NCBI RefSeq assembly: GCF_000010525.1
Contig: NC_009937.1
Coordinates: forward strand, 4,782,501-4,846,500
Origin: Azorhizobium caulinodans ORS 571
GTDB taxonomy: Bacteria; Pseudomonadota; Alphaproteobacteria; Rhizobiales; Xanthobacteraceae
DNA: 64,000 bases
Direction of reading: 5' to 3'
Part shown: positions 13,457 to 32,811 of the stretch, piece by piece
How the letters are laid out: every line of letters starts with the position of its first letter
Position numbering within the stretch: the first letter of the stretch is position 1
Notes under the pieces: generated by a model
The model's input: only the letters and a program-made list of their open reading frames with translations
What the model was told of the DNA's origin: nothing
Databases searched by the model: none
Translations under genes and position numbers: made by a program

Positions 13457-13752
13457 GGCGCTCAACTCGCTGGAAGATGAGGGAAAATCCGCGCGCGGCA
13501 GGCCGGCGCGACGGCGGGAAGTCTTGGATAGGCGTCATAAGGCTTTAGTTCAATCGTTTTAATCACCCCTTGATCCACGCGCGTTACCGCCCCATGATCG
13601 CCCCGCCTCCTCGCCAAAGGAGGCAGCCGCCGCACCGGCGGAAACAAGAGGATGCCGGCACCGAGCAAGGCGAAGCCTGCCGGGAAACGGCACCGACGAG
13701 TTGGGTGGATGACGCTGAGCGCCCGTCATGGGCGGACAAGGAGCACGACACG

Positions 13753-14814
<1,062 letters not shown>

Positions 14815-14822
14815 CCCGGTCC

Positions 14823-14848
14823 CGGACCGGCGCGTGACGCGCCGTCCG
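14823..14848 (+). other. Intercistronic hairpin after the ATPase gene
   Basis: CGGAC-C-GGCGCG / CGCGCC-GTCCG forms an 11 bp stem with one bulged C and a TGA loop, no T-run. It lies between the ATPase and the binding-protein genes and could tune relative mRNA stability. Confidence 0.4.
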
Positions 14849-15023
14849 AGCCCCTTTCGGCATCGCCGGGGCGGCACCAGAACCCGCGCAGACGGGCACC
14901 CGCCGCATCGGCCCTGAGGACAAGTCCATCCCAAAAGACCGTGCGGCTCAGCCGACACGGCGGGGGAAACGCCAAGGCCTGGAGCATATTGCCGCTCCGG
15001 GACGCCAACGGAGGAACGCCAAG

Positions 15024-16337: not shown

Positions 16338-16352
16338 CCCCGACAACGGGAC

Positions 16353-16372
16353 GCCCGGCCGGACGGCCGGGC
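16353..16372 (+). other. Intercistronic hairpin after the binding-protein gene
   Basis: GCCCGGCC / GGCCGGGC, an 8 bp stem with a GGAC loop and no T-run, about 15 bases after the stop. Such stems commonly protect the binding-protein message and lower expression of the permeases. The 280-base gap up to the first permease holds nothing else clear. Confidence 0.5.
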
Positions 16373-16617
16373 GCTTCCAGAGGTTTCCCGGCGCCCGCAC
16401 AAGAGGCGCCGGCCCCGCCCCGATCCCCCGTGGCCGGCCGATGTTCCCCCGTCGGGCGGCCGCGGCAGTGACGGGAAAGGCGCATGGCGGCAGGCCCCCT
16501 CGGGCCGCTGCCCTCTTTCGGGTTTTCCGGCTCGGGCCGGAACGGTTCAGAAGCCCTCCCTCCCCTGCGCGGAGGGACGAGACGCCGCCTCAAGCGGCCT
16601 TGCGGAGATTTCGGTTC

Positions 16618-17565: not shown

Positions 17566-18536
17566 TGTCTTCCTCCCCCGCCTCCGCCCAGCCCTCTCGC
17601 ATGGATGCCGCCATGACCGACCACAGCCTCGCCAAGCCTGGCACCAAGCCGGCGGCCACCAAACCGGACCTCACCGACAACTCCAGCGGCATGAGCTATC
17701 TGGACAGCGTGCCCCGCCGCTTCCTGACGGTGATCCTGCCGCTGCTGGTCTTCGTCTTCGTGCTGCTGTTCCCGTTCTACTGGATGGCCATCACGGCCAT
17801 CAAACCGAACTACCAGCTCACCGATTACGCCAATTACTCGCCGCTCTGGGTGGTGCAGCCGACGCTCGACCACATCAAGTATCTGCTGTTCGAGACCACC
17901 TATCCGCACTGGCTCTGGAACACGCTCTATGTGTCCTTCGCGGCGACCTTCATCTCGCTGGTGACGTCCGTCTTCGCGGCCTATGCCATCGAGCGCCTGC
18001 GCTTCCATGGCTCGCGCTGGGTCGGCCTCGGCATCTTCCTCGCCTATCTGGTGCCGCCGTCCATCCTGTTCATCCCGCTGGCGCTGATGGTGTTCAAGAT
18101 CGGCATCTACGACACCAAGCTGGCGCTGATCCTCACCTACCCCACCTTCCTCGTGCCCTTCTCCACCTGGCTGCTGATGGGCTACTTCCGCTCCATCCCC
18201 TACGAGCTGGAGGAATGCGCCCTGGTGGACGGCGCCTCGCGCTGGCAGATCCTCACCAAGATCCTGCTGCCGCTCTCCGTACCGGGCCTCATCTCGGCGG
18301 GCATCTTCTCCTTCACCCTGTCCTGGAACGAGTTCATCTACGCACTGACCTTCATCCAGTCCTCGGAGAACAAGACGGTGCCGGTGGGGGTGCTGACCGA
18401 ACTGGTGCGCTCGGACGTCTACGAATGGGGATCGCTCATGGCGGGCGCGCTCATCGGCTCGCTGCCGGTGGTCATCCTCTACTCCTTCTTCGTGGACTAT
18501 TACGTCTCGTCCATGACGGGCGCGGTGAAGGAATAG
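17565..18536 (+). CDS. Sugar ABC transporter permease 2
   Basis: A 323-residue MalG/UgpE-type permease. An unusually long hydrophilic N-terminus (about 55 residues, Ser/Pro/Ala/Lys-rich) precedes the first membrane segment (FLTVILPLLVFVFVLLFPFYWMAI). The EAA loop is ECALVDGASRWQILTKILLP and the C-terminus ends in FVDYYVSSMTGAVKE. The start shares an A with the previous stop and has GGCGGAGG upstream. It is the last gene of the importer operon. Confidence 0.92.
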   Translation: MSSSPASAQPSRMDAAMTDHSLAKPGTKPAATKPDLTDNSSGMSYLDSVPRRFLTVILPLLVFVFVLLFPFYWMAITAIKPNYQLTDYANYSPLWVVQPTLDHIKYLLFETTYPHWLWNTLYVSFAATFISLVTSVFAAYAIERLRFHGSRWVGLGIFLAYLVPPSILFIPLALMVFKIGIYDTKLALILTYPTFLVPFSTWLLMGYFRSIPYELEECALVDGASRWQILTKILLPLSVPGLISAGIFSFTLSWNEFIYALTFIQSSENKTVPVGVLTELVRSDVYEWGSLMAGALIGSLPVVILYSFFVDYYVSSMTGAVKE

Positions 18537-18694
18537 TCCCCCCGCAGCATCGGGACGGGCGGACAGCGCCCGCTCGTCCCCGCATTCCCAGCGCACAGGC
18601 AGTGAAAGCCACGCTGCACCTGTGCTAGACCCTGCGTCAGGGGCGGCGGACCGGGCGGTTCGCCGCCGTCTGGTTTCGGGTTTCGGGGGATCGG

Positions 18695-19393: not shown

Positions 19394-19696
19394 TCAGGAA
19401 ATCTCGAACAGCGCCGAGAAGCCGGAGATGTCGAACACCTCCTGGATCTGCGGCTGCAGCGTCTTGAGGCGCAGCTTGCGCTTGTGCGGGCTCATGGCCT
19501 TGCCAGCCACCAGCAGGGCGCGGAGGCCCGAGGACGACACATAGTCCACGCCCGCCATGTCCACGATGATGGCGCCGTTGGAGGCCTTCACCGCTTCCAG
19601 CAGTTTGCCCTCGAACGGTTTGGCATTCAGCGTGTCGAGGCGCCCGCTCACCTTGAGCACCGTGTCTTCGCCGCTCTGTTCGGTCTCGATCTGCAT
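19394..19696 (-). CDS. STAS domain anti-sigma factor antagonist
   Basis: A single-domain STAS protein of 100 residues (RsbV/SpoIIAA type). The phosphorylation loop is VDYVSSSGLRALL; by alignment with SpoIIAA the serine just before the glycine (Ser56) is the one modified by a cognate HATPase kinase and released by a PP2C phosphatase. It is the last gene of a minus-strand row after a Na/Pi cotransporter and an HATPase protein that would be its natural partner. A RsbU/SpoIIE-type phosphatase lies 10 kb away. When unphosphorylated it would bind the kinase and free a target; the target is not in this window. Confidence 0.92.
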   Translation of the reverse strand: MQIETEQSGEDTVLKVSGRLDTLNAKPFEGKLLEAVKASNGAIIVDMAGVDYVSSSGLRALLVAGKAMSPHKRKLRLKTLQPQIQEVFDISGFSALFEIS

Positions 19697-19754
19697 TCAA
19701 ACGTCCTCGCGCTGCCGCGTGCGATGGGCCGCGCCGCCGCGGCTCCCCTCTATC

Positions 19755-21404
19755 CTATACGACGTCTTCCACCGGGCCGGACAGGGCCTGCGTGTCGGAC
19801 CGCTCCTCAGGCCGATTAGCCTCATTTGTCCGGGGGCGCAACGCCAAGGACAGCCGGCGCACCAGCCAGAGCGCGCGCTCGAACAGGCTGGTGGCGCGCA
19901 TCAGGTTGCGCACCTCGTCCCCTCCGGTGGCGCAGCTGGCCGCGAGATCGCGGCGGATCTTGTCGAGCAGGGCGCTGCGGTCCGCCGTCAGCACGGCGAG
20001 ATCGTCGAAATCGAGCTCCAGCGTCTCGCCCGGAACCGCCTCGCTCAGCACCAGCAGCACGGCCCGGAGCGATTCCGACAGGTTGAAGATGAGGGGCGGC
20101 GGCGCGCGGAAGGCATCCACGACCACCGCCAGCTCATGCAGCGTATCCTGCAGGGCGCGCACCAGTTCCACCTGAGCCTGCGCCCTGAGGGCCAGATCGA
20201 GATCCTCGCGGGTCAGGCCCTGGTCGATGAGATCGGCCAGGAAGCGCTCGGTGGTATGGGCGATGGCATCGGCCCCGGTCCAGGCGGCGAGGCGCGCCTT
20301 GCGGTCGTCGAGGTCCGGCTGGTCGAGATCGGGCAGCAGGTCCGGCATGCGCACCACCAGCCGGCCCGTCTCCCGCGCCACGAGATCCAGCGCGGTCGGC
20401 GGATCGCGCACCGCCTTCTCATGGATGAAGCGCGGCCGGGAGAGGCGCTCCTCCGTCGTCTCCGGACTGAGGCGGGCCGAGAGGCGCTCGGTCAGGTTCG
20501 CGAAGAGCACCACCGGCAGGGCGCCTGCCAGTTGCAGCGTGAGGAAGACCAGCGAAAGCGCGATGGCGGGGTCCGCCCCGCCCGCCCGGACGAGCAGTTC
20601 GTCGATGTTCACGCCGGCCTGCGACGCGGCGATGGCAGCGAAGCCGACGAGGATGCAGCCGACGACCTTCGACTGGATCGCCGACAGGCACAGTTGCCGG
20701 GCGCTGCCCTTCAGGTCGCCGGCAGACAGGAGCGTGGCAAGGCCGGAGCCGAGATTGGCGCCCACCACCAGCCACATGCCGTCACCGAGGCCCAGCACAT
20801 GCGCCTGAACCACCGCCACGGCGAGGATGGTGGGGGTGGAGGCGGACTGCGTAATCATCGCCACGAGGCAGCCGAGGAGGAAGCCCCGGGTCGGCGTCAG
20901 GAGTGAGCCGACCATCTGGGCGGCGGCGGCAAGGTCGAGTCCCTTCGGCGCGGTCTTGATGAAGTCGAGCCCGAGGAAGAGCAGCGCCAGCCCGAGCAGC
21001 ACGCCCATCCACTCCCGCCAGCCGGAGCGCCGGTCGAGCCGCAGGTGGAAGGCGATGCCCACGAGGCCCACCAGATAGAGAACCGCCACCTTGAGGTTCA
21101 CGCTGGCAATGAACACCAGCACCGACGTGCCGACGCTGGCGCCCGCCACAACCGGGATGGCATCGCGCGAGGTGAAGACGCCGCCGCGCACCAGATTGGC
21201 GGCGATCATCGTCACCGCATTGCTGGACTGGGTGACGGCGCCGGTGAGGGTGCCGCACAGGAAGCCCGTCAGCCGGGAGCGGGTAGCGGATTGCAGGATG
21301 CGGCGCACGCCCCGTCCCATGGCCTGTTGGAGATGGCTGCCCATCTGCTTCAGGCCAACGAACAACAGGCCAAGGCCAGCGAGGAGCTGTGCGGCGATCA
21401 ACAC
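19755..21404 (-). CDS. Na/Pi cotransporter family protein
   Basis: A membrane protein of about 549 residues. Two Na_Pi_cotrans repeats carry the paired signatures T-Q-S-S-N-A (near residue 56) and T-Q-S-A-S-T (second repeat). After about residue 340 comes a cytoplasmic helical region of PhoU-like type. Members import phosphate with sodium, or act in phosphate-linked signalling. I chose GTG at 21404 (GGAAA upstream, 28 bases after the kinase gene); a longer frame starting near 21500 would overlap the kinase and add an unlikely hydrophilic leader. Its place between the kinase and the STAS gene is unusual and suggests the transporter is tied to the switch. Confidence 0.88.
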   Translation of the reverse strand: MLIAAQLLAGLGLLFVGLKQMGSHLQQAMGRGVRRILQSATRSRLTGFLCGTLTGAVTQSSNAVTMIAANLVRGGVFTSRDAIPVVAGASVGTSVLVFIASVNLKVAVLYLVGLVGIAFHLRLDRRSGWREWMGVLLGLALLFLGLDFIKTAPKGLDLAAAAQMVGSLLTPTRGFLLGCLVAMITQSASTPTILAVAVVQAHVLGLGDGMWLVVGANLGSGLATLLSAGDLKGSARQLCLSAIQSKVVGCILVGFAAIAASQAGVNIDELLVRAGGADPAIALSLVFLTLQLAGALPVVLFANLTERLSARLSPETTEERLSRPRFIHEKAVRDPPTALDLVARETGRLVVRMPDLLPDLDQPDLDDRKARLAAWTGADAIAHTTERFLADLIDQGLTREDLDLALRAQAQVELVRALQDTLHELAVVVDAFRAPPPLIFNLSESLRAVLLVLSEAVPGETLELDFDDLAVLTADRSALLDKIRRDLAASCATGGDEVRNLMRATSLFERALWLVRRLSLALRPRTNEANRPEERSDTQALSGPVEDVV

Positions 21405-21432
21405 GGGCAGGTTTCCGATCGGGGCCTTGCGG

Positions 21433-21882
21433 TCAGGCGGCCTTGCTGGGGTCGGCGACGAGGAGGAAGCGATTTTCCTCCCCCACCCGCTCGTAGGCAA
21501 GATCGGAGAGGAAATGGCGCATCAACTGCACGCCATGACCGCCGATGCGCGCCTCGTCCACCGAGGCCACAGCCTCCGGCTCCCCAACCGAGAGCGGGTC
21601 GAACGGAACGCCATTGTCCACGATCCGCAGCGCGAAGCGGCCTTCGGGCAGGTGGAAATAGTCGAGCCGGATGCGCGGGGGATGGTCCAGCCCCTCGAAG
21701 CCGTAGGAGATGACATTGACCAATGCCTCCTCCAGGCTCAGGTCGAGCCCGAAGCGGATGCGGTCCGGCCAGTTGTCCGCCTCGGCCCGCTCGGCGAGCC
21801 ATTCCGCCACGCGGGGCAATTCCTCGAGGCTGGCCTCCACCGCGAGGCTCGCCACTTCCACGGCGCCGTCCGGCAGGCTCAT
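21433..21882 (-). CDS. HATPase_c anti-sigma regulatory factor / serine kinase
   Basis: A 149-residue RsbW/SpoIIAB-like protein (HATPase_c_2). The N-box is LEEALVNVISYGF, the G1 box is DNGVPFDP and the G2 box is GGHGVQLMRHF, so ATP binding should be intact. Such proteins phosphorylate STAS antagonists and hold a sigma factor or other partner when the STAS protein is phosphorylated. The STAS gene is two genes downstream and the phosphatase is in the divergent operon, making a complete partner-switching set. About 300 bases separate it from the upstream racemase-like gene. Confidence 0.9.
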   Translation of the reverse strand: MSLPDGAVEVASLAVEASLEELPRVAEWLAERAEADNWPDRIRFGLDLSLEEALVNVISYGFEGLDHPPRIRLDYFHLPEGRFALRIVDNGVPFDPLSVGEPEAVASVDEARIGGHGVQLMRHFLSDLAYERVGEENRFLLVADPSKAA

Positions 21883-22179
21883 GCGTCACGGCTCCGGGCA
21901 GCGAAACAGCCGGTGCGGGGCGATGCAGTCGCCCGCCGCCCGTTGGGGCTAGAAGTCCTCGGCATGGGTGCCTCTCCCAAGCGTGCGGCGCGCCGGACGC
22001 AGATTCCTGACCCGTCGGACCCCGGAGGGCGTCCGGTGCCGGTGATGCCCGAACGGCACCTTCCGGCGATCCAACCGCAAAGCTAGTCCGTCCCACCCTT
22101 GCGGGCAATCGGGGCCACACGGCGCAACGCCGTCCGGCCCACGGGAAAATACGGCGCGGAAGCGCCAGCGCCGTCCCGC
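21883..22179. other. Gap between racemase-like gene and HATPase gene
   Basis: About 300 bases with no supported gene. It probably holds the promoter of the HATPase-Na/Pi-STAS unit, or links it to the operon upstream. I see no clear promoter boxes, terminator or repeat; base composition is as high in GC as the coding regions. Confidence 0.4.
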
Positions 22180-23304
22180 TCAACGGGCGACCCTGAGCTT
22201 TTCCTCGCTCGGTTCCAGATAGACCCGGCGCGTCCGCGCTCCGGCCGAAACCATCACCACATTGGGCGCCACGCCCGCGGCCGCCGCCAGAATGTCCACC
22301 GGCTGCGCCGGGCCGAACAGCTCCACCTGCGCCCCCGGCACCGCAAGGCCTTCGGGCAGACCCGAGACGTCAAGGGTCATGAGGCTCATGGCGAGGCCGC
22401 TGACGATGGGCGCGGGCAGGCCGCCCACGTAGCCATAGGCCTGACGCTGGAAGGAGAAGGGCAACCCACCGCCATAGCCCACCCCCACATGGGCGAGGCG
22501 CGCCGGCTGCGGCGTGCGATAGACGCCGCCATAGCCGACCTCGGTCCCGGCAGGCACATCCATGACCCGCAGGATCGGCGCCGTCAGCCGCGCCGCCGGC
22601 AGGATGGGTTGGCGGCTGGACGGGGTGGTTTCGACCCCATAGAGCGCGCTGCCCACGCGGGCATGGTGCGCATGGCGCTCCGGCGGGCCGAACACGCCGG
22701 CGGAAGCGCAGAAGCTGAGCGGCGCGGGGGGCAGCGCCTGCGTCCACGCCCGGAAGCGCCGCCACTGCCAGTCATTGTGGCGGGCGACCGGATTGGAGAA
22801 GTGGGCGAGATGGGTCACATAGGCGGCGATCCGCAGGCCGGCCAGCGGCGAGGGATCGTCCCGCAGACGCTTCACATCGGTGCGCGAGAGGCCAAGGCGG
22901 CTCAGGCCGGTGTCGAACTGGATCGCCACGTCCAGCGGCCCGCGCGCGGCGGCTTCCGCCTGCACGCGGGGCAGTTCGGACGCATCCATCAGCACCGGAA
23001 TGATGCGGTGGGCGCGGAAATCGGCCGGCGCGGCGCCGGCGAGGCCGTGCAGCACGAACACGCGGGCGTCGGGCGCCAGCGTGCGCACCGCCAGCGCCTC
23101 CTCGATGCACACCACCCAGAAATCGCGGCAGCCGAGGGAGGACAGCAGCGGCACGATGCGCGAGAGGCCGAAGCCATAGGCATTCTGCTTCACCACCGCA
23201 CCGAGGGTCGGGCCGCGATACTGGGCACGCACCGTGCGCCAGTTCTGCCGCACCGCGCCGAGATCGATCTCCAGCGTCGCGAGATCGGCGGTCGGCTCAG
23301 GCAT
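22180..23304 (-). CDS. Alanine racemase-like PLP enzyme
   Basis: A 374-residue fold-type III PLP protein. The cofactor lysine lies in VVKQNAYGFG (usual form K-A-N-A-Y-G). DTGLSRLG corresponds to the substrate-site DTGM.RLG motif, and GYGGVY holds the counterpart of the second catalytic tyrosine. Two departures stand out: the residue before FDTG is Gln where many alanine racemases have a carbamylated Lys, and the usual GYADGYPR is GYGGGLP. It may therefore act on another amino acid. The ATG has GGAG upstream inside the end of the GNAT gene, overlapping it by 8 bases. Last gene of a five-gene overlapping chain. Confidence 0.82.
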   Translation of the reverse strand: MPEPTADLATLEIDLGAVRQNWRTVRAQYRGPTLGAVVKQNAYGFGLSRIVPLLSSLGCRDFWVVCIEEALAVRTLAPDARVFVLHGLAGAAPADFRAHRIIPVLMDASELPRVQAEAAARGPLDVAIQFDTGLSRLGLSRTDVKRLRDDPSPLAGLRIAAYVTHLAHFSNPVARHNDWQWRRFRAWTQALPPAPLSFCASAGVFGPPERHAHHARVGSALYGVETTPSSRQPILPAARLTAPILRVMDVPAGTEVGYGGVYRTPQPARLAHVGVGYGGGLPFSFQRQAYGYVGGLPAPIVSGLAMSLMTLDVSGLPEGLAVPGAQVELFGPAQPVDILAAAAGVAPNVVMVSAGARTRRVYLEPSEEKLRVAR

Positions 23305-23968
23305 CGGCGTGCTCCGACACATACAGGATGTGCGGTTCGCCCTTCACGGACCGGGCCTCCACGCCCCGCCAGCCGGCCGCCAGCAGAGCGGACTGCGTGC
23401 CGGCATCGGCGGGGACCACGAGGCGCTCCGCCCGGGACACGACGCGCGTGCCGTCGCGCACCATCACATAGCGCAGGTGGCCGCCGTAATAGGGCCGCAG
23501 CGCCCGCACCGCGAAGCCCTCGGCGAGCAGGTTGGTCCAGCTCGGCGTATTGGCCGGGGCGGAGGTCGCGAACAGGATGTGGCTTTCCGGCGCCATCGCC
23601 ACACGGGCGGCGATCAGCGCCCGCTGGAGGCTGCGCCCGCGATAGGGCTGCGCCACGGACGCGCCGGCGAGCTTGGCGATCGGCGCATCGGCAGCAAGGC
23701 CCAGATGCGGGCGCGGATCGTCGTAGTCGGGAAGGGCATGCTGGAGGACGCCATAGGCGATGAGGACGTCGTCCAGGAACACGCCGATCATCCGGCCGCG
23801 GCCGGCGAGGATGCCGGCGAAGAAATCCCGGCTCTCTGGCTTCACGATTTCCGGGCGCACGGCTTCGCCGATGGCCGCCCGGTGCAGGGCGTAGATCGCA
23901 TCCAGATCGCCGGCTTCGAGCGCGCGCCAGACCAGTTCGCCCGACAGACCTGCGACGGCGGCATTCAT
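23297..23968 (-). CDS. GNAT family N-acetyltransferase
   Basis: A 223-residue protein with a GNAT fold: an N-terminal GELVWRALEAGDLDAIYALHRAA helix-strand unit, and an acetyl-CoA loop in LAGASVAQPYRGRSLQRALIAAR (the Q/RxxGxG/A element, here QPYRGR). C-terminal strands follow (NLLAEGFAVRALRPYYGGHLRYVM). The substrate is unknown. Its start overlaps the solute-binding protein's stop (ATGA), and its 3' end overlaps the racemase-like gene. Acetylation of an amino acid or of the racemase product is one possibility (inference). Confidence 0.75.
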   Translation of the reverse strand: MNAAVAGLSGELVWRALEAGDLDAIYALHRAAIGEAVRPEIVKPESRDFFAGILAGRGRMIGVFLDDVLIAYGVLQHALPDYDDPRPHLGLAADAPIAKLAGASVAQPYRGRSLQRALIAARVAMAPESHILFATSAPANTPSWTNLLAEGFAVRALRPYYGGHLRYVMVRDGTRVVSRAERLVVPADAGTQSALLAAGWRGVEARSVKGEPHILYVSEHADA

Positions 23969-24987
23969 CCGGTAACCAGCTCCGCATAATTGAGCATGGC
24001 GATGGGCGGATAGATGCCCAGCGATTTGGCCACGCGCATGTTGATGACGAGGGAGAAGCGCTTCAGCGTCTCGATGGGGATGCGGCTCGGCGGGGTGCCC
24101 TGGGACAGGATCTCCACCGCCTTGGTGCCGGCCAGCTGGCCGACCGAGTAGTACCGGCTCACGAGGCCGACCAGCGCGCCGCCCTCGCGGATCGCAAGCT
24201 CGGCCGCGCCGAAGGTGGGCATGCCGGCCGCCAGCGCCGCCGGGGTCACCCGGTCATAGATGGTGCCGAGGAAGGTGTCGGGCAGCAGGTAGAGCCAATC
24301 CGCCTTGTCCGCCCGGAGCTGGGTGACCATCTGCTCCACCCCGTCCGCCGTCGGGCGGCCGCTGGCGTCGGTCTTGAACGGGCGGGCGATGACCTTCGCG
24401 CCATTGGCCTTGGCGAAGGCCTCCACCTCGCGCACGATCACCACGGAGTTCTGCTCGGTCTCCGAATAGAGGATGCCGATGGTCGAGAACTCCATGTAGG
24501 ACTGCATGGCCTTCATCTGCACGTCGGTCGGCACCACGTGCACGGCGCCGGTCACGTTGCGGCCCGACGAGGCGAAGCTCGGGGCGATGCGGGCCTGCAC
24601 CGGCGCGGACACCAGCGCGAACACCACCGGAATGTCGCGGATGTACTTCGGGTCCTGACTGTCATAGGGGCCGACGACGCCGAGCGTCACCGGCGTGCCC
24701 CAGGTGTAGATGAGGTCCGGCTTCAGCGTATCGAGATCGGCCAGCATGCGCGGCAGGTTGGCAATGTCGCGGCGGGCGTCGCGGGAGATGATCTCCGTCT
24801 TGAGCCCGGCCGTGTCCAGCAGGTCGCGGAAGCCGCGCTCCGCCTCGGTCTCGCCGCGGAACGTGAGCATGAGGATCTTGTAGGTGCGATCGTCGGCCGC
24901 CCGCGCGGCGCGCGGCAGCGTCAGCGCCGCTCCGGCACCCACGCCGAGGGACAGCAGAGAACGGCGATCCAGCACTGGACCTGTCAT
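23965..24987 (-). CDS. PF04392-type ABC substrate-binding protein
   Basis: A 340-residue solute-binding protein without its own permease or ATPase. D-R-R-S-L-L followed by a glycine/alanine-rich hydrophobic stretch and A-R-A suggests Tat export. The body fits PF04392: KILMLTFRGETEAERGFRDLLDTAG, DLIYTWGTPVTLGVVGPY, IPVVFALVSAPV, GRNVTGAVHVVPTDVQMKAMQ, and a C-terminal LVINMRVAKSLGIYPP. Some family members are reported to bind aromatic amino acids. AAGGAGG precedes the ATG, which overlaps the stop of the MFS fusion gene (ATGA). With no transporter partner here it may serve as a periplasmic ligand sensor for the membrane proteins of the operon (inference). Confidence 0.88.
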   Translation of the reverse strand: MTGPVLDRRSLLSLGVGAGAALTLPRAARAADDRTYKILMLTFRGETEAERGFRDLLDTAGLKTEIISRDARRDIANLPRMLADLDTLKPDLIYTWGTPVTLGVVGPYDSQDPKYIRDIPVVFALVSAPVQARIAPSFASSGRNVTGAVHVVPTDVQMKAMQSYMEFSTIGILYSETEQNSVVIVREVEAFAKANGAKVIARPFKTDASGRPTADGVEQMVTQLRADKADWLYLLPDTFLGTIYDRVTPAALAAGMPTFGAAELAIREGGALVGLVSRYYSVGQLAGTKAVEILSQGTPPSRIPIETLKRFSLVINMRVAKSLGIYPPIAMLNYAELVTG

Positions 24988-26993
24988 GGCACCCGAGCCT
25001 CCTTGGGAGCGGCGGCCGCGGGCCCGCGGCGCGCCGGCACGCGCCCCGATAGTATAAAGGCTGCCGCGCCCACAACCACTATGGCACCGATACTCATCAT
25101 TGAAGTTACAAATCCGACACTTCCGAGCAGCAGTCCGGCGGCGGCGGGGCCGGCGGCATTGCCGCTGCGTTCCACCAGCCGGAACAGGCCGAGCACGCCG
25201 GCCGACCGGCCGCCCGGGACATGGCGGGCGCTGTCCGCCACCAGCGCCGACTGCGGCGCGATGGACATGGACTGGCCGATGCCCAGCATCATCAGCACCA
25301 GCGCCAGGATGAGCGGCGAGGAGCCGAACACGACGAGCAGCGCCCCCGCCCCTGCCAGAAGGCCGCCGGTGGCCACGAAGGCGGCGCGGGCCGAGAGCCG
25401 GTCGGCGACGCTGGCGAAGACCGGCACGGCCAGCACCATGATGACCGGATAGATCATCTGAAGCCGGCCCACCGCCGCCGCGCTGTAGCCCGCGCGCTGG
25501 AGTTCCACCGGGATCAGGTAGAAGCACAGGGCGGCGAGGATGAACTTGGCCGGGAAGGCGCAGCCGAACAGCAGCGGCGCGAGGCGCGGCGCCGTCAGCG
25601 CGGCCTTGAGATCGGAGAGGGCCAAGCCCTGGCCCACCGCACGGCGCTCGGGCTTGGGCAGGCTCCAGGCGGCCAGGGCGAGCGCGATCACGGCAAGCCC
25701 CGCCGACACCAGGAAGGCAATGTTTCCGCCGAGGCGGTCATCGATCACGCCCCCGATCGGCGGGCCGCACAGCGCCGCCACCATGATGGCCCCGACGAAG
25801 ACGGCGAGCCCCTCGGAGCGCTCGGATGGCGCGGATCGATCCACCACATGGCCCTGTGCCGAGACGAACACCAGGGAATAGCCTAGGGCGGAGATCACGC
25901 GGGCCGCGAGGAAGACCCAATAAGTTCCGGCAAGGCCCGCCAGCAGATAGCCGCAGGCGGCAAGGCCGGCGCCGATGACGAAGCCGGTGCGGCGGCCGAG
26001 CCATTCGGAGAAGGCGCCGAAGGGAATCTGCCCAAGCGCCACCACGGCCATGAAGACCACGATGGGCAGGCTGACGGCGAAATCGATGCTGAAAGGCACG
26101 CCCGGCGCCGCCAGCGCCTGCGTGTAGCGCGGCAGGAAGGGCCGGGAGAGTTCTTCGGCCAGCATGAAGAGGAAGAGGGCCGGCCGCACCATCGCCGCGG
26201 CGCGGTTGCCGACCACATGCATCTCGCCGACGCCGGTCTCGCTCTCGAGCCGCTTCAGCGTCTCCACCTGAGCCTCGTCACCCCGGCGCTCGGCCTCCGT
26301 CAGGGCGAATTCCTGGCGGGCGGCCAGAGCATCCATCTGGCGGTCGAGCGGGCCGACGAGATCGCGGGCGGCGGCACCGGCGGGCGGGTGGCGCGTCAGG
26401 CGGCCACGGGCGAGGTCGCGCAGCCGGCCGTCGATGGCGTCGAGCACCGTCACGCCGCCCACGCCCACCACCAGCGCGCCGAGTTCCAGCGCCATCAGCA
26501 GCGCCACGATGCCGATGAACGCGACATCGACCAGCACCGCCATGACCTGCCGGGAGAGGACCCCCGGGTCGGCCATCACGACCAGCACGGCGGCCTGCGC
26601 GCCGTCCGGACCATGGACGGGAACGCGCACCTGCGGCCAGTCGTCCCCATCCACCTTTCCGACCTCGAACAGCACCCGGCCGTCGCGGACCAACTGCATC
26701 TCGGCGATTTCGTCGTTGTCGTTCACCAGCTTCAGGAAGTGGGCCTGGACGCCGGCCAGCCGGTCCAGCGGAATATCCGCCGCCAGCGCCGTCTCGATCA
26801 GGGCCGCCGTGGCGCGCCCGACGGATTCCGCCTTGGCGAGGATGGAGGGGACGATGGTCCGCTCGGCCGCCGAACGGGCGCCGAAGGCGACCACCGCCAG
26901 CGCCGTGCAGAGCACGAGGATCATGGCCAGCGACAGCCCGGTGCGCAGGCCGATGGAGGTCCGCCCCGAGAGATGTTCGCGCAGGAGTCTCAC
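24984..26993 (-). CDS. Membrane sensor domain fused to an MFS transporter
   Basis: A 669-residue fusion. Residues 17-40 form a membrane helix, about 41-150 a periplasmic domain (SILAKAESVGRATAALIETALAADIPLDRL..., IAEMQLVRDGRVLFEVG), then a second helix (VDVAFIGIVALLMALELGALVVG) and a HAMP/coiled-coil-like stretch (PLDRQMDALAARQEFALTEAERR). From about residue 265 a 12-helix MFS domain follows, with the typical loop GQIPFGAFSEWLGRRTGF. The GTG start overlaps the previous stop (GTGA), which fixes it. MFS pumps normally lack such a sensor module. The protein may couple ligand sensing to export, or act as a transporter-like receptor; the partner genes favour signalling. Confidence 0.85.
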   Translation of the reverse strand: MRLLREHLSGRTSIGLRTGLSLAMILVLCTALAVVAFGARSAAERTIVPSILAKAESVGRATAALIETALAADIPLDRLAGVQAHFLKLVNDNDEIAEMQLVRDGRVLFEVGKVDGDDWPQVRVPVHGPDGAQAAVLVVMADPGVLSRQVMAVLVDVAFIGIVALLMALELGALVVGVGGVTVLDAIDGRLRDLARGRLTRHPPAGAAARDLVGPLDRQMDALAARQEFALTEAERRGDEAQVETLKRLESETGVGEMHVVGNRAAAMVRPALFLFMLAEELSRPFLPRYTQALAAPGVPFSIDFAVSLPIVVFMAVVALGQIPFGAFSEWLGRRTGFVIGAGLAACGYLLAGLAGTYWVFLAARVISALGYSLVFVSAQGHVVDRSAPSERSEGLAVFVGAIMVAALCGPPIGGVIDDRLGGNIAFLVSAGLAVIALALAAWSLPKPERRAVGQGLALSDLKAALTAPRLAPLLFGCAFPAKFILAALCFYLIPVELQRAGYSAAAVGRLQMIYPVIMVLAVPVFASVADRLSARAAFVATGGLLAGAGALLVVFGSSPLILALVLMMLGIGQSMSIAPQSALVADSARHVPGGRSAGVLGLFRLVERSGNAAGPAAAGLLLGSVGFVTSMMSIGAIVVVGAAAFILSGRVPARRGPAAAAPKEARVP

Positions 26994-27652
26994 TTGGCCT
27001 CTCCCGCGGCGGGCGCGCCCACCAGCGCGGCAGCATGGGCCCGGTCGAGCCGCCCCAGCGCCGCCTGCGCCGAAGCCGGCCATTGCGCCGGGTTGCCGGC
27101 ATTGCGGAGCGCCCGGCCGACGTTGCCGGCAATCAGCAGACCTGCGAGGCCCGTGGCGAGCGCCGCCAGCAGCACCGCCGGCACGGCGAACACACGGATG
27201 TCCGCCGCGAGTTGCGCCGCGTCGCGCTGGAGGACGGCCGGATCATAGGATACCGCGACGCGGCCGATGGCGGCGCCGATGTCGTTCTCGATGCGCCGGC
27301 TGACCATGGCGGCCGCGCGCGGCGGCAGCGTCGTGCCCTGCCGGGCCGCATCCGAACTGAAGACGATCTGCCCGTGCTCGTCAGCCACATCGATGCTGCG
27401 CACGGCGGCATCGAGACCGGCCTCGCGCGCCACCAGTTCTTCCAGCGTGTGCTGGCTCGCCACCGCAATGCCGAGGCTGTTGGCCAGTTCCGCCGTGGTG
27501 GCGACGCGGGCGGCGGTCACGGTGAAGCGCTCCTCCACCGCCGCGCGATTCGCGGACAGCAGCGTGACGTATGAGAAATAGGCACCGAATGCGACGCAGG
27601 CGGCGGTGATCAGGGCAAACAGAACAGTCAGGACGGTGGCGATGCGTGTCAT
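26990..27652 (-). CDS. Membrane-anchored sensor-like protein A
   Basis: A 220-residue protein with one helix at residues 3-27, a periplasmic domain of about 120 residues (ATTAELANSLGIAVASQHTLEELVAREAG..., VRSIDVADEHGQIVFSS), a second helix (PAVLLAALATGLAGLLIAG) and a short Ala-rich cytoplasmic tail without an output domain. The layout matches the N-terminal part of the next gene and the two divergent sensor genes. The ATG has GCGGGA upstream; a longer start at 27736 is possible but adds an unlikely leader. First gene of the five-gene overlapping chain. No family name can be given with confidence. Confidence 0.7.
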   Translation of the reverse strand: MTRIATVLTVLFALITAACVAFGAYFSYVTLLSANRAAVEERFTVTAARVATTAELANSLGIAVASQHTLEELVAREAGLDAAVRSIDVADEHGQIVFSSDAARQGTTLPPRAAAMVSRRIENDIGAAIGRVAVSYDPAVLQRDAAQLAADIRVFAVPAVLLAALATGLAGLLIAGNVGRALRNAGNPAQWPASAQAALGRLDRAHAAALVGAPAAGEAK

Positions 27653-27814
27653 GGGTCCCGCAATCCCTGTCAACGCTTTACGGTGTCTGTAGCCAGTTAC
27701 GATGAAAAGCCCGGCCCTGTGCAGCGTTTTTTCCATTAGGCCCAGTTTTTGCTCTGGTTTGAGCCGGGCGGGACGGCTAACGTCCGCCCCGTTTCGCCCT
27801 CATTCGTCTGCTGC
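27653..27814. promoter_or_regulatory. Divergent promoter region of the signalling locus
   Basis: This 162-base gap separates the minus-strand sensor-MFS-racemase chain from the plus-strand sensor-phosphatase operon and must hold promoters for both. A hairpin or operator-like repeat GGGC(g)GGACG-GCTAA-CGTCCGCCC (27766-27789) lies 25 bases before the plus-strand start. T-runs occur at 27727-27732 and 27746-27750. I could not assign -35/-10 boxes safely. Confidence 0.45.
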
Positions 27815-28573
27815 ATGACTTTCATCGGTCGCCTGATCCTGATCGTTTCCGCCGCCCTGCTCGCGACGCTGCTGCTCGTCGCAGCCGGGGCCTTTGTCGC
27901 GAGCGAGCGGGTGACGGCCAACATCGAGCGCGCCCGCGTCTCGCACATGCTCGGCAGCCTCAGGGCCGCGACCGAGGCGAACCTCTCCATCGGCCTCGCG
28001 CTCGACCAGATCTCCTCGCTTCAGGCGCGCATCGAGCGCGAGAATGCGGCGGACGCCGCGATCATCGCCATCGACATCTTCAACGCGCAGGAGCGGTCGG
28101 TCTCCCGCAAGTCGATCTACAGCACGGACCGCGGATCCATCGGCGAGAACGTGCCCTGGGCCTGGACGGAGCGGCTTGCCAACAACACCATCTGGTCGGT
28201 GCCCGGCCATGGCGAGACCGTCTACATCACCCGCTTCGACAACGACCTCGGCCTTGCGGGCGGCATCGCCATCACCGTCTCGGATTCGGCGCGGGACGTG
28301 CGCAACGAGCGCCTCCTGCAGGACCTGGCCTGGCACACCGGCCTCATCGCCCTCGGGACGATTGCCGTCGGCATCGTGCTGAGCCTCATCTTCAGCCACA
28401 TGATCACCCGGCCGTTCCGCACCGCGACCGCCTTGCTCAAGGGCTCCGAGATCCCGGTGAGCGGCGAGGGCATGGAACATCTGGCGCAGCAGACGCGCCG
28501 CAACTGGGATCGCATGGACGTGCGGCTGGATACCGGCCTCAAGCAACTGGAGGCGCTGGACGATGCCCAGTGA
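27815..28573 (+). CDS. Membrane-anchored sensor-like protein B
   Basis: A 252-residue protein: helix 1 at residues 5-27 (LILIVSAALLATLLLVAAGAF), a periplasmic domain with EANLSIGLALDQISSLQARIERENAADAAIIAIDIFNAQERSV, helix 2 near residues 172-196 (TGLIALGTIAVGIVLSLIF), then a HAMP-like TRPFRTATALL and a short tail. No enzymatic output is visible. I chose the ATG directly before the first helix; no good ribosome-binding site is visible, so the start is provisional. Its 3' end overlaps the next gene by 11 bases. Probably a subunit that senses a periplasmic signal for the phosphatase two genes on (inference). Confidence 0.7.
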   Translation: MTFIGRLILIVSAALLATLLLVAAGAFVASERVTANIERARVSHMLGSLRAATEANLSIGLALDQISSLQARIERENAADAAIIAIDIFNAQERSVSRKSIYSTDRGSIGENVPWAWTERLANNTIWSVPGHGETVYITRFDNDLGLAGGIAITVSDSARDVRNERLLQDLAWHTGLIALGTIAVGIVLSLIFSHMITRPFRTATALLKGSEIPVSGEGMEHLAQQTRRNWDRMDVRLDTGLKQLEALDDAQ

Positions 28574-29417
28574 GGCCAAAGCCCCCCAGTTGGGCCGCAC
28601 CCGTCTCGTTACGGGCCTTGTGGCGTTCATCCTGACCTTCGCCCTCGGCGGGGCCGCCAGCCTGCTGCTGGTCAGCCAGTTCAAGACCACGGTTGAAGAG
28701 ACCGCCCGGCGCGACGTCTCGGTCATCGGCGGCTCGCTCGCGCGGGCACTCGCCCAGCAGTTCGAGAAGGCCGCGCGCTTCGGCATCCCGCTGAAGCTGC
28801 TGCCGGGCGTGGAGAGCTATCTCGCCCAGACGCTGACCCAGACGCCCGGCATCACCCGCATCGTGGTGCGCGGGCCGGACGGCCGCGAGGTGCGCAGCGC
28901 CATCGGCCCGACCACGGGCACCGACACGGTGAGCGCGCCCATTCAGGTGGACGGGCTGTCGGTCGGCCTCGTGGAGGTGACCACCAGCCCGACCTCCTTC
29001 AGCGCCGGCATCGACGACACCGAATGGCGCATGCTGGGTGCCGTCGCCGGCTGCGCGCTGATGAGCGGCCTGCTGGCGGCCTGGCTCGCGGGCGGCGCCC
29101 TCAACCGCCGCCGCCAGCGCTTCGTCACGGCGCTGGAGCGCAATCTCGACGGCGATCTTGACCCCGGCCCGTATTCGGCGGCCATCGGCCGGTCGTCGGT
29201 GGCGCGCGCCTTCCATGCGCTGTCCATGGAAGCCCGGCGCATCGGTGCCAAGGTCACCGCCTTCCAGGCCTATGCGGAGGAACTCCTCGCGGTGGACTTC
29301 GATGGCCAGTTGCGGCCGGAGGTGGAGCGCATCCGCCGCGAGGCGCTGCCGGCGCCCGTCCACCTGCCGACGACCACCGACGACACCCTCTCGCCGCAGC
29401 CGAAGCGGGGCGCCTGA
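28563..29417 (+). CDS. Membrane-anchored sensor-like protein C
   Basis: A 284-residue protein with helices at about 16-38 (LVTGLVAFILTFALGGAASLLLV) and 155-178 (LGAVAGCALMSGLLAAWLAGGAL). The periplasmic domain between them includes FEKAARFGIPLKLLPGVESYLAQ and ITRIVVRGPDGREVRSAIG, the same pattern as proteins A, B and the MFS fusion. The cytoplasmic part (about 105 residues) is mostly helical with no recognised output domain. Its stop overlaps the phosphatase ATG by one base, so the two are co-translated. Likely an accessory sensor of the phosphatase; no family name assigned. Confidence 0.7.
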   Translation: MPSEAKAPQLGRTRLVTGLVAFILTFALGGAASLLLVSQFKTTVEETARRDVSVIGGSLARALAQQFEKAARFGIPLKLLPGVESYLAQTLTQTPGITRIVVRGPDGREVRSAIGPTTGTDTVSAPIQVDGLSVGLVEVTTSPTSFSAGIDDTEWRMLGAVAGCALMSGLLAAWLAGGALNRRRQRFVTALERNLDGDLDPGPYSAAIGRSSVARAFHALSMEARRIGAKVTAFQAYAEELLAVDFDGQLRPEVERIRREALPAPVHLPTTTDDTLSPQPKRGA

Positions 29418-31465
29418 TGCTGTTGCGCACCCGCATCACCCTGCTCGTCGCCGCTGGCTTCCTCGTGCTGCTCGGCTGCTTCGGCGCCCTGTTCTACATG
29501 CGCGACCGCATGGATGCCGAGCGTCTGTCCGCGGTGGTCATCCAGGGCCAGCAGGCGCTCTGGCGCGAGAGCGTGGAGGTGGAAGCCTCCGCCCTCGACA
29601 AGAGCCTCGATGCCTTTTCCGCCTCGCCGGAGCTGCGGGCGGCGCTGTTGGCCGGCGACCGGTCCGCCGTCGTGGCCGGTCTCAACAAGCTCGACGTGTT
29701 CAGCAGCGGCACACCGCTGATCTTTGAAGTCCTGTCCGAGGACCGTGAGGCGCTGCTGGTCCAGGGCACGCCGCAGGATCGCGGGCTGCTGGACGCCGGC
29801 AGCATGGACCGCGTGCTGACGGGCGAGCGCATCACCGGCCTGCGCCAGATCTCCGCCGACCAGATCCTCGTCGTCGCCGCCCGGCGCATCTCCCTTCCGA
29901 ACGGCGACAACGTCATCCTCGTCCTCGGCCGTGATGCCCGCAGCGCCGTGACCCGCTTCGCCGGCAGCATCCATGCGGCGAGCTCGCTCCTCACGCTGCG
30001 CGGCCAGCTCGCCGCCGCCACCGACCCCAATCTCTGGCGCCAGGCCAACCTCGCCATCTCGCCCCGCCAGGCCCTGCGCGACGAGATCGCGCTGTCCGGC
30101 CGGATCTACAGCGTCACCAGCGTGCCCGTGGGCGACATCACGAACAGCACCGTCGGCGCGCTCGTGAGCATGGTCGACAACACCGAGAGCATCACCTACG
30201 CGCGCCGGGTGCGGGCCATCGGCATCACCATCGGCCTCGGTCTCGCCTTGCTCGGCATCGTCGGCCTCAATGCCTTCCTCTGGTACAGCTTCCGCCCGCT
30301 TGAGCGCGCCATCGACGTGCTCCAGGCGCTTTCGCGCGGCGACACCTCCGTCAGCCTGAACTATGCCGGCCGCGACGAGATCGGCCGCATCGCCAAGGCC
30401 CTCGTGTCCTTCCGCGCCAATGTGCAGGAACTGGCCGAGACCCGCCGCCAGCGCGAGCGTGTGCGCCGTCGCCAGGAAATGGTGATCTCGGCCGAGCTGA
30501 AGGCGCTTGCGGACGCCATCGACCCGCAGGACCGCGATCAGGTGCTCTCGCTCCTGACCGCCGACACCGACCGGGGCGAGGACGAACTGCGCCGCGTCGC
30601 CCGCGTGCTGCACGATCTCTCCCGTCGCATCGTCGAGCAGCACACCCGCCTGTCGTCCATGGTGGTTGAGCTGCGTGAGGCCCTCGTCACCAAGACCAAG
30701 CTCGCCGGCCTCCAGCAGGAACTGGAGATCGCCGCGCAGGTGCAGCTCGCCATCCTGCCGAGGGCCTTCCCGCCGCACCCGCGCATCGGCGTGCACGGCC
30801 ACATGACCCCGGCCCGCGAGGTGGGCGGCGACTTCTACGATTACTTCCTCATCGACGACAGCACGCTCGGCTTCGTGGTGGCGGACGTGTCCGGAAAGGG
30901 CGTTCCGGCCGCCCTGTTCATGGCCATCTCGCGCACGCTGCTGCGGTCCACCGCCATGTTCGAGCGCTCGCCCGCGGTCAGCGTGCGGCGGCTGAACGAC
31001 CTGCTGGCGCTGGAAAACGAGCAGATGCTGTTCGTGACGCTCTTCTACGGCGTCATCAATCTCGACACCGGCAAGGTGTCCTATGTGAATGCCGGCCATA
31101 ACCTGCCCTACAAGATCACGCAGGCGAACGAGGTCAGCGTCGTGCCCAGCACCAAGGGCATGGCGGTCGCGGTGATGGAAGGCTTTGTCTACGAGGAGGG
31201 CGAGCTCTACCTCTCCGCGGGCGATACGCTGTTCCTCTATACGGACGGCGTGCCGGAGGCCTTCGACATCGACGAGGCGCCCTACGGCGACGAGCGTCTG
31301 GCGGAACTGCTGAAGGAGGGCGCCGCCCACTGGCCGGTGCCCGAGATGCCCGAGCGCGTGCTCCAGTCGGTGCGCGCCTTCGAGCGCGGCGCCCCGCAGG
31401 CGGACGACATCACCTGCCTGACGCTGCGCTATTTCGGCGGCAACACGCGGCGGCATACGCTCTAG
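29417..31465 (+). CDS. Sensor-HAMP-SpoIIE (PP2C) protein phosphatase
   Basis: A 682-residue RsbU/SpoIIE-like serine phosphatase. A helix at residues 7-27, a large periplasmic domain and a second helix near 265-285 precede a HAMP domain (FRPLERAIDVLQALSRGDTSV) and a coiled linker. The catalytic domain begins near residue 430; metal-binding motifs are GGDFYDYF (about 470), DVSGKG (about 490), YVNAGH (about 555), TDGVPEA (about 607) and ADDITCL (about 661). All catalytic aspartates are present. It should dephosphorylate a STAS protein in response to a periplasmic signal; the STAS gene at 19.4 kb is the obvious candidate. Last gene of the plus-strand sensor operon. Confidence 0.93.
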   Translation: MLLRTRITLLVAAGFLVLLGCFGALFYMRDRMDAERLSAVVIQGQQALWRESVEVEASALDKSLDAFSASPELRAALLAGDRSAVVAGLNKLDVFSSGTPLIFEVLSEDREALLVQGTPQDRGLLDAGSMDRVLTGERITGLRQISADQILVVAARRISLPNGDNVILVLGRDARSAVTRFAGSIHAASSLLTLRGQLAAATDPNLWRQANLAISPRQALRDEIALSGRIYSVTSVPVGDITNSTVGALVSMVDNTESITYARRVRAIGITIGLGLALLGIVGLNAFLWYSFRPLERAIDVLQALSRGDTSVSLNYAGRDEIGRIAKALVSFRANVQELAETRRQRERVRRRQEMVISAELKALADAIDPQDRDQVLSLLTADTDRGEDELRRVARVLHDLSRRIVEQHTRLSSMVVELREALVTKTKLAGLQQELEIAAQVQLAILPRAFPPHPRIGVHGHMTPAREVGGDFYDYFLIDDSTLGFVVADVSGKGVPAALFMAISRTLLRSTAMFERSPAVSVRRLNDLLALENEQMLFVTLFYGVINLDTGKVSYVNAGHNLPYKITQANEVSVVPSTKGMAVAVMEGFVYEEGELYLSAGDTLFLYTDGVPEAFDIDEAPYGDERLAELLKEGAAHWPVPEMPERVLQSVRAFERGAPQADDITCLTLRYFGGNTRRHTL

Positions 31466-31602: not shown

Positions 31603-32811
31603 GTGTCCATCGCAGCCGTCCGCACACCGCCCTCACGGGAGATGGCGACCATTTCCGCCGTGGGAACGGCGCACTTCACCAGCCATCTGCTGCAACTGGC
31701 TTTCGCGCCGCTGTTCCTCACCATGCGTGACGATCTCGGCGTCACATTCACCGAGCTCGGCGCGCTGCTTTCCGCCTTCTATCTGGCCTCGGGCATGGGA
31801 CAGGTGACGGCCGGCATCCTCGTGGACCGCTTCGGCGCCCACCGCCTGCTGCTGGCCGGCATGGCGCTCCAGGCCTCCTCCGTCGCCGCCATCGGCCTTG
31901 CGCCCACTTACGGCCTGATGCTGCCGCTTGCCTTCCTCTCCGGCCTCGGCAACGCCGTCTATCACCCGGCGGACCTGTCCATCCTCAGCCACCGCATCCG
32001 GCCCGAGCGGCTGGGCCGGGCCTTCGCGGCGCATGTGATCGCGGGCAATTTCGGATACGCGGTCTCCCCGCTCATGTCCGGCACGCTCGCCATCGCGTTC
32101 GGCTGGCGCACGGCGCTGGTGGTGATGGGCGGGGCCGCCCTCGTCGCAACCTTCGCGCTCATCGCGGTGCGGCCGGTGCTGCACAGCCCCACCATCGCCG
32201 AACAGGCCAAGGCACCGGGCGGGGTGGCCCCCATCTCCTTCGGTCAGGTGCTCACCACGCCCGTGGTGCTGCTCGCTTTCTTCTACTTCCTGCTGTCGTC
32301 CATCTCGCTGGTGGGCATCCAGAATTTCTCGATCGCCGCGCTGCAGGAGGGCTATGCCTTCACCGCCGCCATGGCGACGCTCACAATCACGGCCTATCAG
32401 CTCGCCACCGCCGCCGGCGTGGCCATCGGCGGCTATGTGGCGGACCGCTCCACCCATCACCATCGCATCGCCATGGGCGGCCTCGCCGCCGCCGCCGCCT
32501 GCGCGGCGCTGGCCAGCCTCCACCTGCCGCTGGCCCTCGCCACCACGGCGCTGGTCGTGGGCATCGGCTTTGCCAACGGCCTCACCCTGCCGTCCCGCGA
32601 CGTACTGGTGCGCCGCGCCTCCCCCGCCGGGGCGACCGGCAAGGTGTTCGGCGTCGTCTATTCGGGGTTCGACATCGGCTCGCTGTTCGCGCCGCTGATC
32701 TACGGCCTGCTGATGGACCACCATCTGCCGCACGGCGTCTTCCTCACCGCCGCCGTGCCGCTGGCGCTGGGCATCGTCACCGTGCTCGGCGTGCGGCCGG
32801 GCAAGCGCTGA
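31603..32811 (+). CDS. MFS transporter, fosmidomycin-resistance (Fsr) like
   Basis: A 402-residue, 12-helix MFS protein. GNAVYHPADLSILSHRI, in the fourth or fifth helix region, is close to the Fsr group of drug exporters, and DRFGAHRLLLAG is the loop 2-3 motif. The GTG start follows GGGAGTGAGCC. It is transcribed in the same direction as the phosphatase, with a 137-base gap without a clear terminator, so it may be separate. The substrate could be fosmidomycin-like or another small anion; not provable here. Confidence 0.85.
   Translation: MSIAAVRTPPSREMATISAVGTAHFTSHLLQLAFAPLFLTMRDDLGVTFTELGALLSAFYLASGMGQVTAGILVDRFGAHRLLLAGMALQASSVAAIGLAPTYGLMLPLAFLSGLGNAVYHPADLSILSHRIRPERLGRAFAAHVIAGNFGYAVSPLMSGTLAIAFGWRTALVVMGGAALVATFALIAVRPVLHSPTIAEQAKAPGGVAPISFGQVLTTPVVLLAFFYFLLSSISLVGIQNFSIAALQEGYAFTAAMATLTITAYQLATAAGVAIGGYVADRSTHHHRIAMGGLAAAAACAALASLHLPLALATTALVVGIGFANGLTLPSRDVLVRRASPAGATGKVFGVVYSGFDIGSLFAPLIYGLLMDHHLPHGVFLTAAVPLALGIVTVLGVRPGKR

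Follow-up and report, generated by a model that had tools for sequence, protein, structure and literature searches.

The window analysed here is a stretch of 64,000 nucleotides from Azorhizobium caulinodans ORS 571 (positions 4,782,501 to 4,846,500 of NC_009937.1, a single contig of 5,369,772 bases), and coordinates are given as window positions. Between 19394 and 31465, it carries the genes of a putative partner-switching module, in which a phosphatase, a protein kinase and a STAS protein are encoded together with membrane sensors, an MFS transporter fusion and a solute-binding protein. The gene positions listed in the initial annotation, which was made from the sequence alone, hold, and two divergent gene strings part at ~27.7 kb. 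The minus string contains, in this order, sensor A, the Cache-HAMP-MFS fusion, the PF04392 binding protein, a GNAT acetyltransferase, a racemase-like enzyme, the kinase, a Na/Pi transporter and the STAS protein; the plus string contains sensor B, sensor C and the PP2C phosphatase. Overlapping gene junctions (GTGA, ATGA, ATGA and TGATG, read by eye) suggest coupled translation. A gap of 297 bases lies ahead of the kinase gene, and a hairpin with T-rich sequence (also read by eye) follows the STAS gene. The arrangement suggests an operon-like organization. Residue counts given below refer to alignments of proteins from related loci (denoted by L numbers), from which sequences outside length limits were excluded.

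The STAS protein (19394..19696, minus strand) is of the RsbV/SpoIIAA type and matched Pfam STAS with 65 bits and TIGR00377 with 71 bits, the latter over the cut-off. The kinase (21433..21882, minus strand) is a HATPase_c_2 protein of the RsbW type (PF13581, 58 bits), and the sensor-HAMP-PP2C (SpoIIE) phosphatase (29417..31465, plus strand) matched PF07228 with 165 bits and HAMP with 40 bits, in agreement with its earlier assignment. The phosphatase residues D472, D490, D610, D663 and D664, which we take to be metal-binding, are kept in 55 of 55 sequences (L035 omitted). Likewise, E52, N56, D89, G114 and G117 of the kinase are kept in 56/56, so that the N, G1 and G2 boxes, already noted in the initial annotation, are present throughout. 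The phosphorylation site of the STAS protein had been placed at Ser56 and had to be shifted by one residue: the conserved serine is Ser55 (49/49), with Ala in 28 and Ser in 18 of the 49 sequences at position 56. Ser55, presumably the equivalent of RsbV Ser56 and SpoIIAA Ser58, with which the alignments are consistent, is the predicted phosphorylation site. No sigma factor was detected with Pfam among the genes scanned between 18780 and 34336, as had been stated before. Searches of the organism's own genome returned three SpoIIE matches, STAS matches of 66, 55 and 29 bits, of which the two best lie in small frames, and 18 HATPase_c_2 matches, among which this kinase (58 bits) and a match in a 702-amino-acid frame (56 bits) stand out; many of the remaining ones are presumably histidine kinases. 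Elsewhere in the genome (5323441-5324904), a SpoIIE and a HATPase_c_2 match both lie in 702-amino-acid frames, presumably one frame, whose predicted product is another possible partner-switch protein.

The Cache-HAMP-like-MFS fusion (24984..26993, minus strand, 669 amino acids) has a DHA1-type MFS half, with an MFS_1 match of 152 bits in its C-terminal part. Its structural model (predicted local distance difference test score, pLDDT, of 91.2) contains a long first helix, a four-strand sensor, more helices and the MFS bundle. Among the matches listed by a fold search, the MFS half resembles VMAT, NorA and MdfA; these matches cover the MFS half, so the assignment of the sensor fold rests on the secondary structure of the model and weak Pfam hits. 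Motif C (GP..GG), which we take to be the signature of DHA1-type MFS exporters, is kept, with G410 found in 68, P411 in 61, G414 in 68 and G415 in 67 of 68 sequences.

Sensor A (26990..27652, minus strand; open reading frame (ORF) open to 27736) is a membrane Cache-type sensor and sensor B (27815..28573, plus strand; ORF open from 27749) a membrane sensor, both without an output domain. They enclose the divergent intergenic region between the gene strings (27653..27814), whose limits depend on start sites picked by eye: 27652 and 27815 were chosen as the likely real starts against Xanthobacter ORFs. Membrane sensor C (28563..29417, plus strand) is a short form of a Cache-HAMP-MFS paralogue. 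No Pfam cut-off was reached by any of the three sensors, the best match being that of sensor A to sCache_3_2 (18.7 versus 28.4 bits). When the family alignments were compared with hhalign, sensors A and B matched each other with 99.9% probability, and sensor C matched the fusion with 536 aligned columns, a probability of 100% and an E-value of 2e-52. Judged by these alignments, sensors A and B are paralogues of each other, and sensor C derives from a transporter fusion whose transporter half has been lost in this lineage. The sensor C frames are bimodal in length, with 262-289 amino acids in 24 loci and at least 402 in 28. A second, intact MFS fusion is present in the gammaproteobacterial locus L127, the EE..R, PAK and R..ER motifs are largely gone in eight long sensor C proteins inspected from alphaproteobacteria, and the second MFS half is absent in the Xanthobacteraceae, including the window, and in six betaproteobacterial loci. 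Together with the paralogy, this stepwise loss suggests that an ancestral pair of sensor and sensor-MFS genes was duplicated, after which one transporter half decayed and the sensor was retained.

The PF04392 solute-binding protein (23965..24987, minus strand) matched its Pfam model with 100 bits (cut-off 25.9), and no second PF04392 match was found in the own genome at an E-value of 0.001. The earlier description of this protein as lacking ABC partners agrees with the result that no ABC permease or ATPase lies beside it among the genes scanned in 19394-31465. It scores 68-77 bits to three solved PF04392 relatives, which carry Tyr, Phe or Trp according to the available part of the source (PMC6816091). 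The GNAT acetyltransferase (23297..23968, minus strand) remains under the 25-bit Pfam cut-off with 20.7 bits, yet its model (pLDDT 94.6) matches GNAT structures with E ~1e-7 and upholds the assignment. A substrate was not derived from the fold search, as only generic GNAT matches were among the matches listed; the GNAT profile weakly matches acetyltransferases for puromycin (E 2e-5), nourseothricin (0.002) and phosphinothricin (0.04). The enzyme of the alanine racemase family (22180..23322, minus strand; Ala_racemase_N 150 bits, Ala_racemase_C 79 bits) misses the cut-off of the alanine racemase equivalog TIGR00492 (145.6 versus 168 bits). Its Lys45, Arg142, Arg222 and Tyr264 are kept in 24/24 sequences and are presumed to be the pyridoxal phosphate lysine (K45) and the catalytic Tyr (Y264) and Arg (R142, R222) residues. 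The gene is a second copy in the genome, the other lying at contig position 2379205. The Na/Pi cotransporter family protein (19755..21413, minus strand, start approximate within ORF 19755-21500; PF02690, 136 bits) retains Q62, S63, Q189 and S190 in 22/22 sequences and has a C-terminal region with conserved residues. A PhoU-like tail was considered for this region, received no Pfam support and is not claimed.

Conservation was analysed with the MFS fusion as query in a class sample of 189 and an order sample of 149 other genomes. Among the matches listed, those starting before query residue 155 came from 10 genomes of either sample. The closest named relatives were two Azorhizobium species (68-70% identity), and four other genomes of the same family in the order sample gave no fusion match at an E-value of 1e-20, so the distribution is patchy. 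The pair of a Cache-HAMP-MFS fusion and an adjoining PF04392 binding protein was encountered repeatedly in records from alpha-, beta- and gammaproteobacteria (metagenome assemblies in the case of several betaproteobacteria), and in the neighbourhoods fetched, usually several other parts of the module lie nearby as well. By tblastn over 68 loci, the fusion was detected in 68, the binding protein in 56, sensor A in 50, the phosphatase in 48, sensor B and GNAT in 46 each, the kinase in 44, sensor C in 43, STAS in 36, the Na/Pi transporter in 21 and the racemase in 20; ten loci, all from Azospirillum, showed the MFS protein only.

Profile searches were performed on a main set of 74 loci, 55 of which carry 7.5 kb of flanking sequence on both sides. 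L071 and L075 (taken as the same records as L114 and L120) as well as L139 and L014 (~3 kb) were left out, and L035 was omitted from the PP2C residue count, counted as lacking PP2C in the locus count and retained in the phosphatase tree and distance tables. Hits were obtained in the 74 loci for PF04392 (72), GNAT (57), racemase (24) and Na/Pi transporter (22). In the 55 well-flanked loci, the binding protein was found in 54, PP2C in 49, GNAT in 46, the kinase in 45, STAS in 38, the racemase in 24 and the Na/Pi transporter in 17, with phosphatase, kinase and STAS all present in 38. Sensors A, B and C each gave 55/55 hits; these profiles cross-match one another and the fusion, so the sensor hits are not independent. 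The comparison set (n=24) consisted of 14 loci with other MFS proteins (L043-L052 and L077-L080) and the ten Azospirillum loci, and contained PP2C in 3, the kinase in 1, STAS in 1 and GNAT, racemase or Na/Pi transporter in 0 loci each. It is not cleanly negative, as it includes a sister group: a PF04392-type gene is present in 11 of the 14 non-Azospirillum loci, of which three encode PP2C in addition, and the switch is complete in L043. Among the findings that would refute it, the initial annotation had named a lack of co-occurrence; instead, loci from three classes combine the switch proteins (phosphatase, kinase and STAS) with sensors, MFS fusion, binding protein and GNAT.

Outside the Xanthobacteraceae, the core shows mostly 25-60% identity and rearranged gene orders, with the kinase and STAS genes switching place and strand among loci. 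Pairs of loci that are distant in the MFS fusion tend to be distant also in binding protein, phosphatase, GNAT and sensors, with Spearman coefficients of 0.69-0.90 among the pairwise distances of these proteins. Relative to the fusion, the coefficients are 0.90 for sensor A, 0.89 for the phosphatase and GNAT, 0.84 for the binding protein and sensor B, 0.83 for the Na/Pi transporter, 0.82 for sensor C and 0.72 for the racemase. On account of these strong correlations, the sensing chain and the phosphatase behave like a unit that is inherited jointly. The kinase and STAS genes occur in most loci as well and may have been swapped. In a phosphatase tree built with a quick method, 17 rows of the Xanthobacteraceae type, including the window, join six betaproteobacterial rows with an SH-like approximate likelihood ratio test (SH-aLRT) value of 100; a seventh betaproteobacterial row (L103) was placed elsewhere on a long branch, and the Defluviicoccus assembly L133 groups with the gammaproteobacterial rows. 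Both of the joined groups have the short sensor C and contain rows with Na/Pi genes, a pattern suggestive of transfer between classes. In L087, L089, L092, L093, L095, L096 and L118, a STAS-like match is situated between the kinase and GNAT (in L095, between the kinase and MFS), and in L094 it follows GNAT at the contig end; its position is roughly that of the Azorhizobium racemase gene.

Of the genes around the module, MFS2 (31603-32811), a FAD oxidase and UPF0114 were considered as further parts and rejected; their matches are mainly within Xanthobacteraceae loci and they look like bystanders. Upstream, at 13570-18536, lies an ABC operon with a MalK-like ATPase, its own SBP_bac_8 binding protein and two permeases, which is likewise left out of the module.

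Judged by gene content, the output varies among relatives of the module. A class III cyclase is encoded in 22 of the 74 main loci (20 of the 55 well-flanked ones) and in 0 of the 24 comparison loci. Cyclase and kinase form one open frame in 7 loci, and the cyclase frame overlaps the kinase frame in 4. In L039, a TPR-S-cyclase is encoded between the sensor and kinase genes, and in L035 a dCache-HAMP-class III cyclase protein (14980-17163) occupies the place of the PP2C phosphatase, with neither kinase nor STAS found by the profiles in the 19.9 kb of this locus. None of the loci with a Na/Pi transporter, which include the close relatives of the window, overlaps the cyclase set. The window itself contains no class III cyclase by profile search, and the one class III cyclase match in the own genome lies ~0.27 Mb away from the locus. 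On these grounds, the chances that the cyclase serves as output in the relatives appear about even; that a switch protein can drive a cyclase is exemplified by SiaC, which activates the cyclase SiaD (PMC8457831, available part). The Na/Pi transporter is a more tentative candidate for the output in the window lineage.

A wider family became visible in the sister group. A ligase-like ATP-grasp gene lies near the long MFS protein in 9 of the 14 non-Azospirillum comparison loci (L044-L047, L051 and L077-L080), mostly with a PF04392-type gene as well; besides L127, six of these nine loci supplied seeds for the profile, and five of the six were first found via a gene pair in L127. The four ATP-grasp proteins scanned match Dala_Dala_lig_C. 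Among the 74 main loci, the ATP-grasp profile matched L127 only, where paralogous genes at 17601-18608 and 19710-20738 (~41% identical) flank the binding protein gene. GGDEF-EAL genes are located nearby in L046, L077, L079 and L080 (with Pfam domains in L077 and L079), the corresponding profile also matching main-set loci L070 and L122 and comparison locus L044, and histidine kinase genes in L044 and L047. In L043, a gene of the GCS2 family adjoins the MFS gene. Enzymes of amino-acid-type chemistry thus recur near the family, though different ones, and adjacency is no proof that outputs are driven by the module. It is conceivable, if improbable, that these loci represent a family of exchangeable receptors for amino-acid signals, in which PF04392 protein and sensor-HAMP-MFS protein would form a transport-coupled receptor driving a partner switch, a class III cyclase, c-di-GMP enzymes or histidine kinases. 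Combining enzymes for synthesis or modification (racemase, GNAT, D-Ala-D-Ala-ligase-like ATP-grasp) with an MFS protein of exporter type and a binding-protein receptor, such a unit may make, export and read its own amino-acid-derived signal, as a binding-protein-based system of cell-cell signalling.

The overall explanation that we consider probable is a single conserved signalling module, in which an array senses an amino-acid-like ligand and the outputs are exchangeable; that the genes constitute one sensing system with a working switch is held with considerably greater confidence. Gene content, neighbourhood, domain composition and the integrity of the catalytic residues were observed directly; beyond the switch, the mechanism that follows is inferred. 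The PF04392 protein would bind a small ligand outside the cytoplasm, most likely an amino acid or derivative, and would dock on a membrane array made up of sensors A, B and C, the Cache-HAMP-MFS fusion and the phosphatase's own sensor. Since sensors A and B have no output domain, their signal would need to pass sideways to the phosphatase, via HAMP or coiled-coil contacts. The phosphatase would strip the phosphate off STAS Ser55 and the kinase would restore it; the dephosphorylated STAS protein would capture the kinase, freeing a target, or itself engage the target. This target would be exchangeable, in many relatives most likely being the class III nucleotide cyclase. In the window lineage, where the locus has no cyclase gene, the Na/Pi transporter, whose gene lies between those of kinase and STAS, would be the best candidate nearby. 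The MFS half, which retains exporter-type motifs, may carry the ligand or a modified form of it, and GNAT and racemase would modify the ligand. The amino-acid-type ligand, proposed already in the initial annotation, is about equally likely to be right or wrong, its basis being the aromatic amino acids of the solved relatives and the racemase, acetyltransferase or ligase-like enzymes beside the module.

Several observations weigh against this explanation. The identity of the binding protein to its solved relatives is low, for which reason an aromatic amino acid is not claimed as the firm ligand, and a conserved loop differs: the position of Ala130 is Ala in 44 and Asp in 8 of 69 sequences, and Asp in the solved relatives. 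The switch is incomplete in 17 of the 55 well-flanked loci, 7 lacking STAS, 4 kinase and STAS, and 6, including L035, all three proteins. Kinase and STAS, both short proteins, correlate weakly in their distances with the rest (0.25-0.38; to the fusion 0.38 and 0.29). The profiles were made from the main loci's own sequences, so that the counts favour the main loci over the comparison set, and the gammaproteobacterial loci are all metagenome-assembled. As to the outputs, the cyclase is encoded in 9 of the 22 cases by a gene of its own, oriented convergently to the phosphatase gene (PAS-cyclases in L114 and L073, which were scanned), and cyclase and Na/Pi transporter follow clades, so their mutual exclusivity rests on a handful of events. 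Racemase and Na/Pi transporter, each absent from most main loci, are accessory, which rules out a strict system of ten or eleven genes as initially proposed; its core was largely borne out by conservation, with kinase and STAS less in step. Sensor paralogy, the wider family and the exchange of outputs are new beyond that proposal.

An alternative is an RsbU-V-W type switch of the ordinary kind that acts on a sigma factor or other regulator encoded elsewhere, with MFS protein, binding protein and enzymes being regulated neighbours rather than sensors. The core proteins match the classical families, the locus genes scanned include no sigma factor, and for the RbaVWY partner switch of Rhodobacter capsulatus a sigma factor was not found either, according to the available part of the report (PMC3999984). 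However, kinase and STAS are less regularly present than binding protein and MFS fusion, and the single kinase-cyclase frames in 7 loci as well as the cyclase replacing PP2C in L035 point to an output other than a sigma factor; we consider this possibility rather unlikely. Slightly less likely still is a sense-and-resist module against amino-acid-like antimetabolites, where the array would detect the compound, the DHA1-type MFS protein export it and GNAT acetylate it, while spare racemase or ligase-like enzymes would relieve inhibition. Racemases and ligase-like ATP-grasp proteins belong to families targeted by such antimetabolites, and both occur, the former here and the latter in relatives. 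The resemblance of the MFS half to drug and amine antiporters and the weak matches of the GNAT profile to the acetyltransferases named above would fit as well, but for resistance a duplicated array of sensors with signalling outputs would be an elaborate arrangement, and no locus gene points to a drug. Chance clustering of unrelated genes could account for the bystanders matching mainly in Xanthobacteraceae and for the patchy racemase and Na/Pi transporter; it is contradicted by the co-occurrence counts, with the core found repeatedly next to the MFS fusion in loci of all three proteobacterial classes, and is highly improbable.

Among the known systems closest to the proposed signalling module is SiaABCD of Pseudomonas aeruginosa, which has a PP2C-type phosphatase, a kinase, a STAS-like switch protein and a cyclase output according to the available part of PMC7647112. 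SiaA is the best-scoring NCBIfam model for the module phosphatase, but the score of 70.9 bits is far below the cut-off of 700. In addition, SiaC is phosphorylated on Thr68 whereas Ser55 is the predicted site here, the module locus genes scanned include no GGDEF domain, and a binding protein, MFS fusion or modifying enzymes are not named for SiaABCD in the part of PMC7647112 available. RsbU-RsbV-RsbW and SpoIIE-SpoIIAA-SpoIIAB comprise the same three protein families, with catalytic residues intact; in contrast to them, the module has no sigma factor among the locus genes scanned and includes a membrane sensor array and a transporter fusion. PF04392 proteins of the TrpX / CD0873 type are of the same family as the binding protein, which however lacks an adjoining ABC permease or ATPase and misses the TrpX cut-off (100 versus 390 bits). 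In UhpC-like MFS receptors and LuxP-LuxQ binding-protein receptors, an MFS fold or a binding protein acts upstream of a signalling protein; the module differs in that its MFS protein is fused to Cache and HAMP parts and that the output is a partner switch. The parts thus belong to known families; the assembly and the exchange of outputs were not found described among the papers listed by searches of open-access literature aimed at this gene set.

If the proposed mechanism is true, the fusion would be a bacterial MFS transporter fold covalently joined to HAMP signalling, with natural intermediates ranging from a full transporter half to none. Transceptors are called rare in the available part of PMC11109136, known ones being eukaryotic, and a first prokaryotic case is claimed there for another fold. 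Nucleotide cyclases, and perhaps a Na/Pi transporter, would join what a STAS partner switch can control; the word cyclase is absent from the covered parts of a review of STAS-only proteins (PMC8256260). The module looks like an exchangeable signalling unit, and an orphan switch would become a testable pathway with a purifiable receptor.

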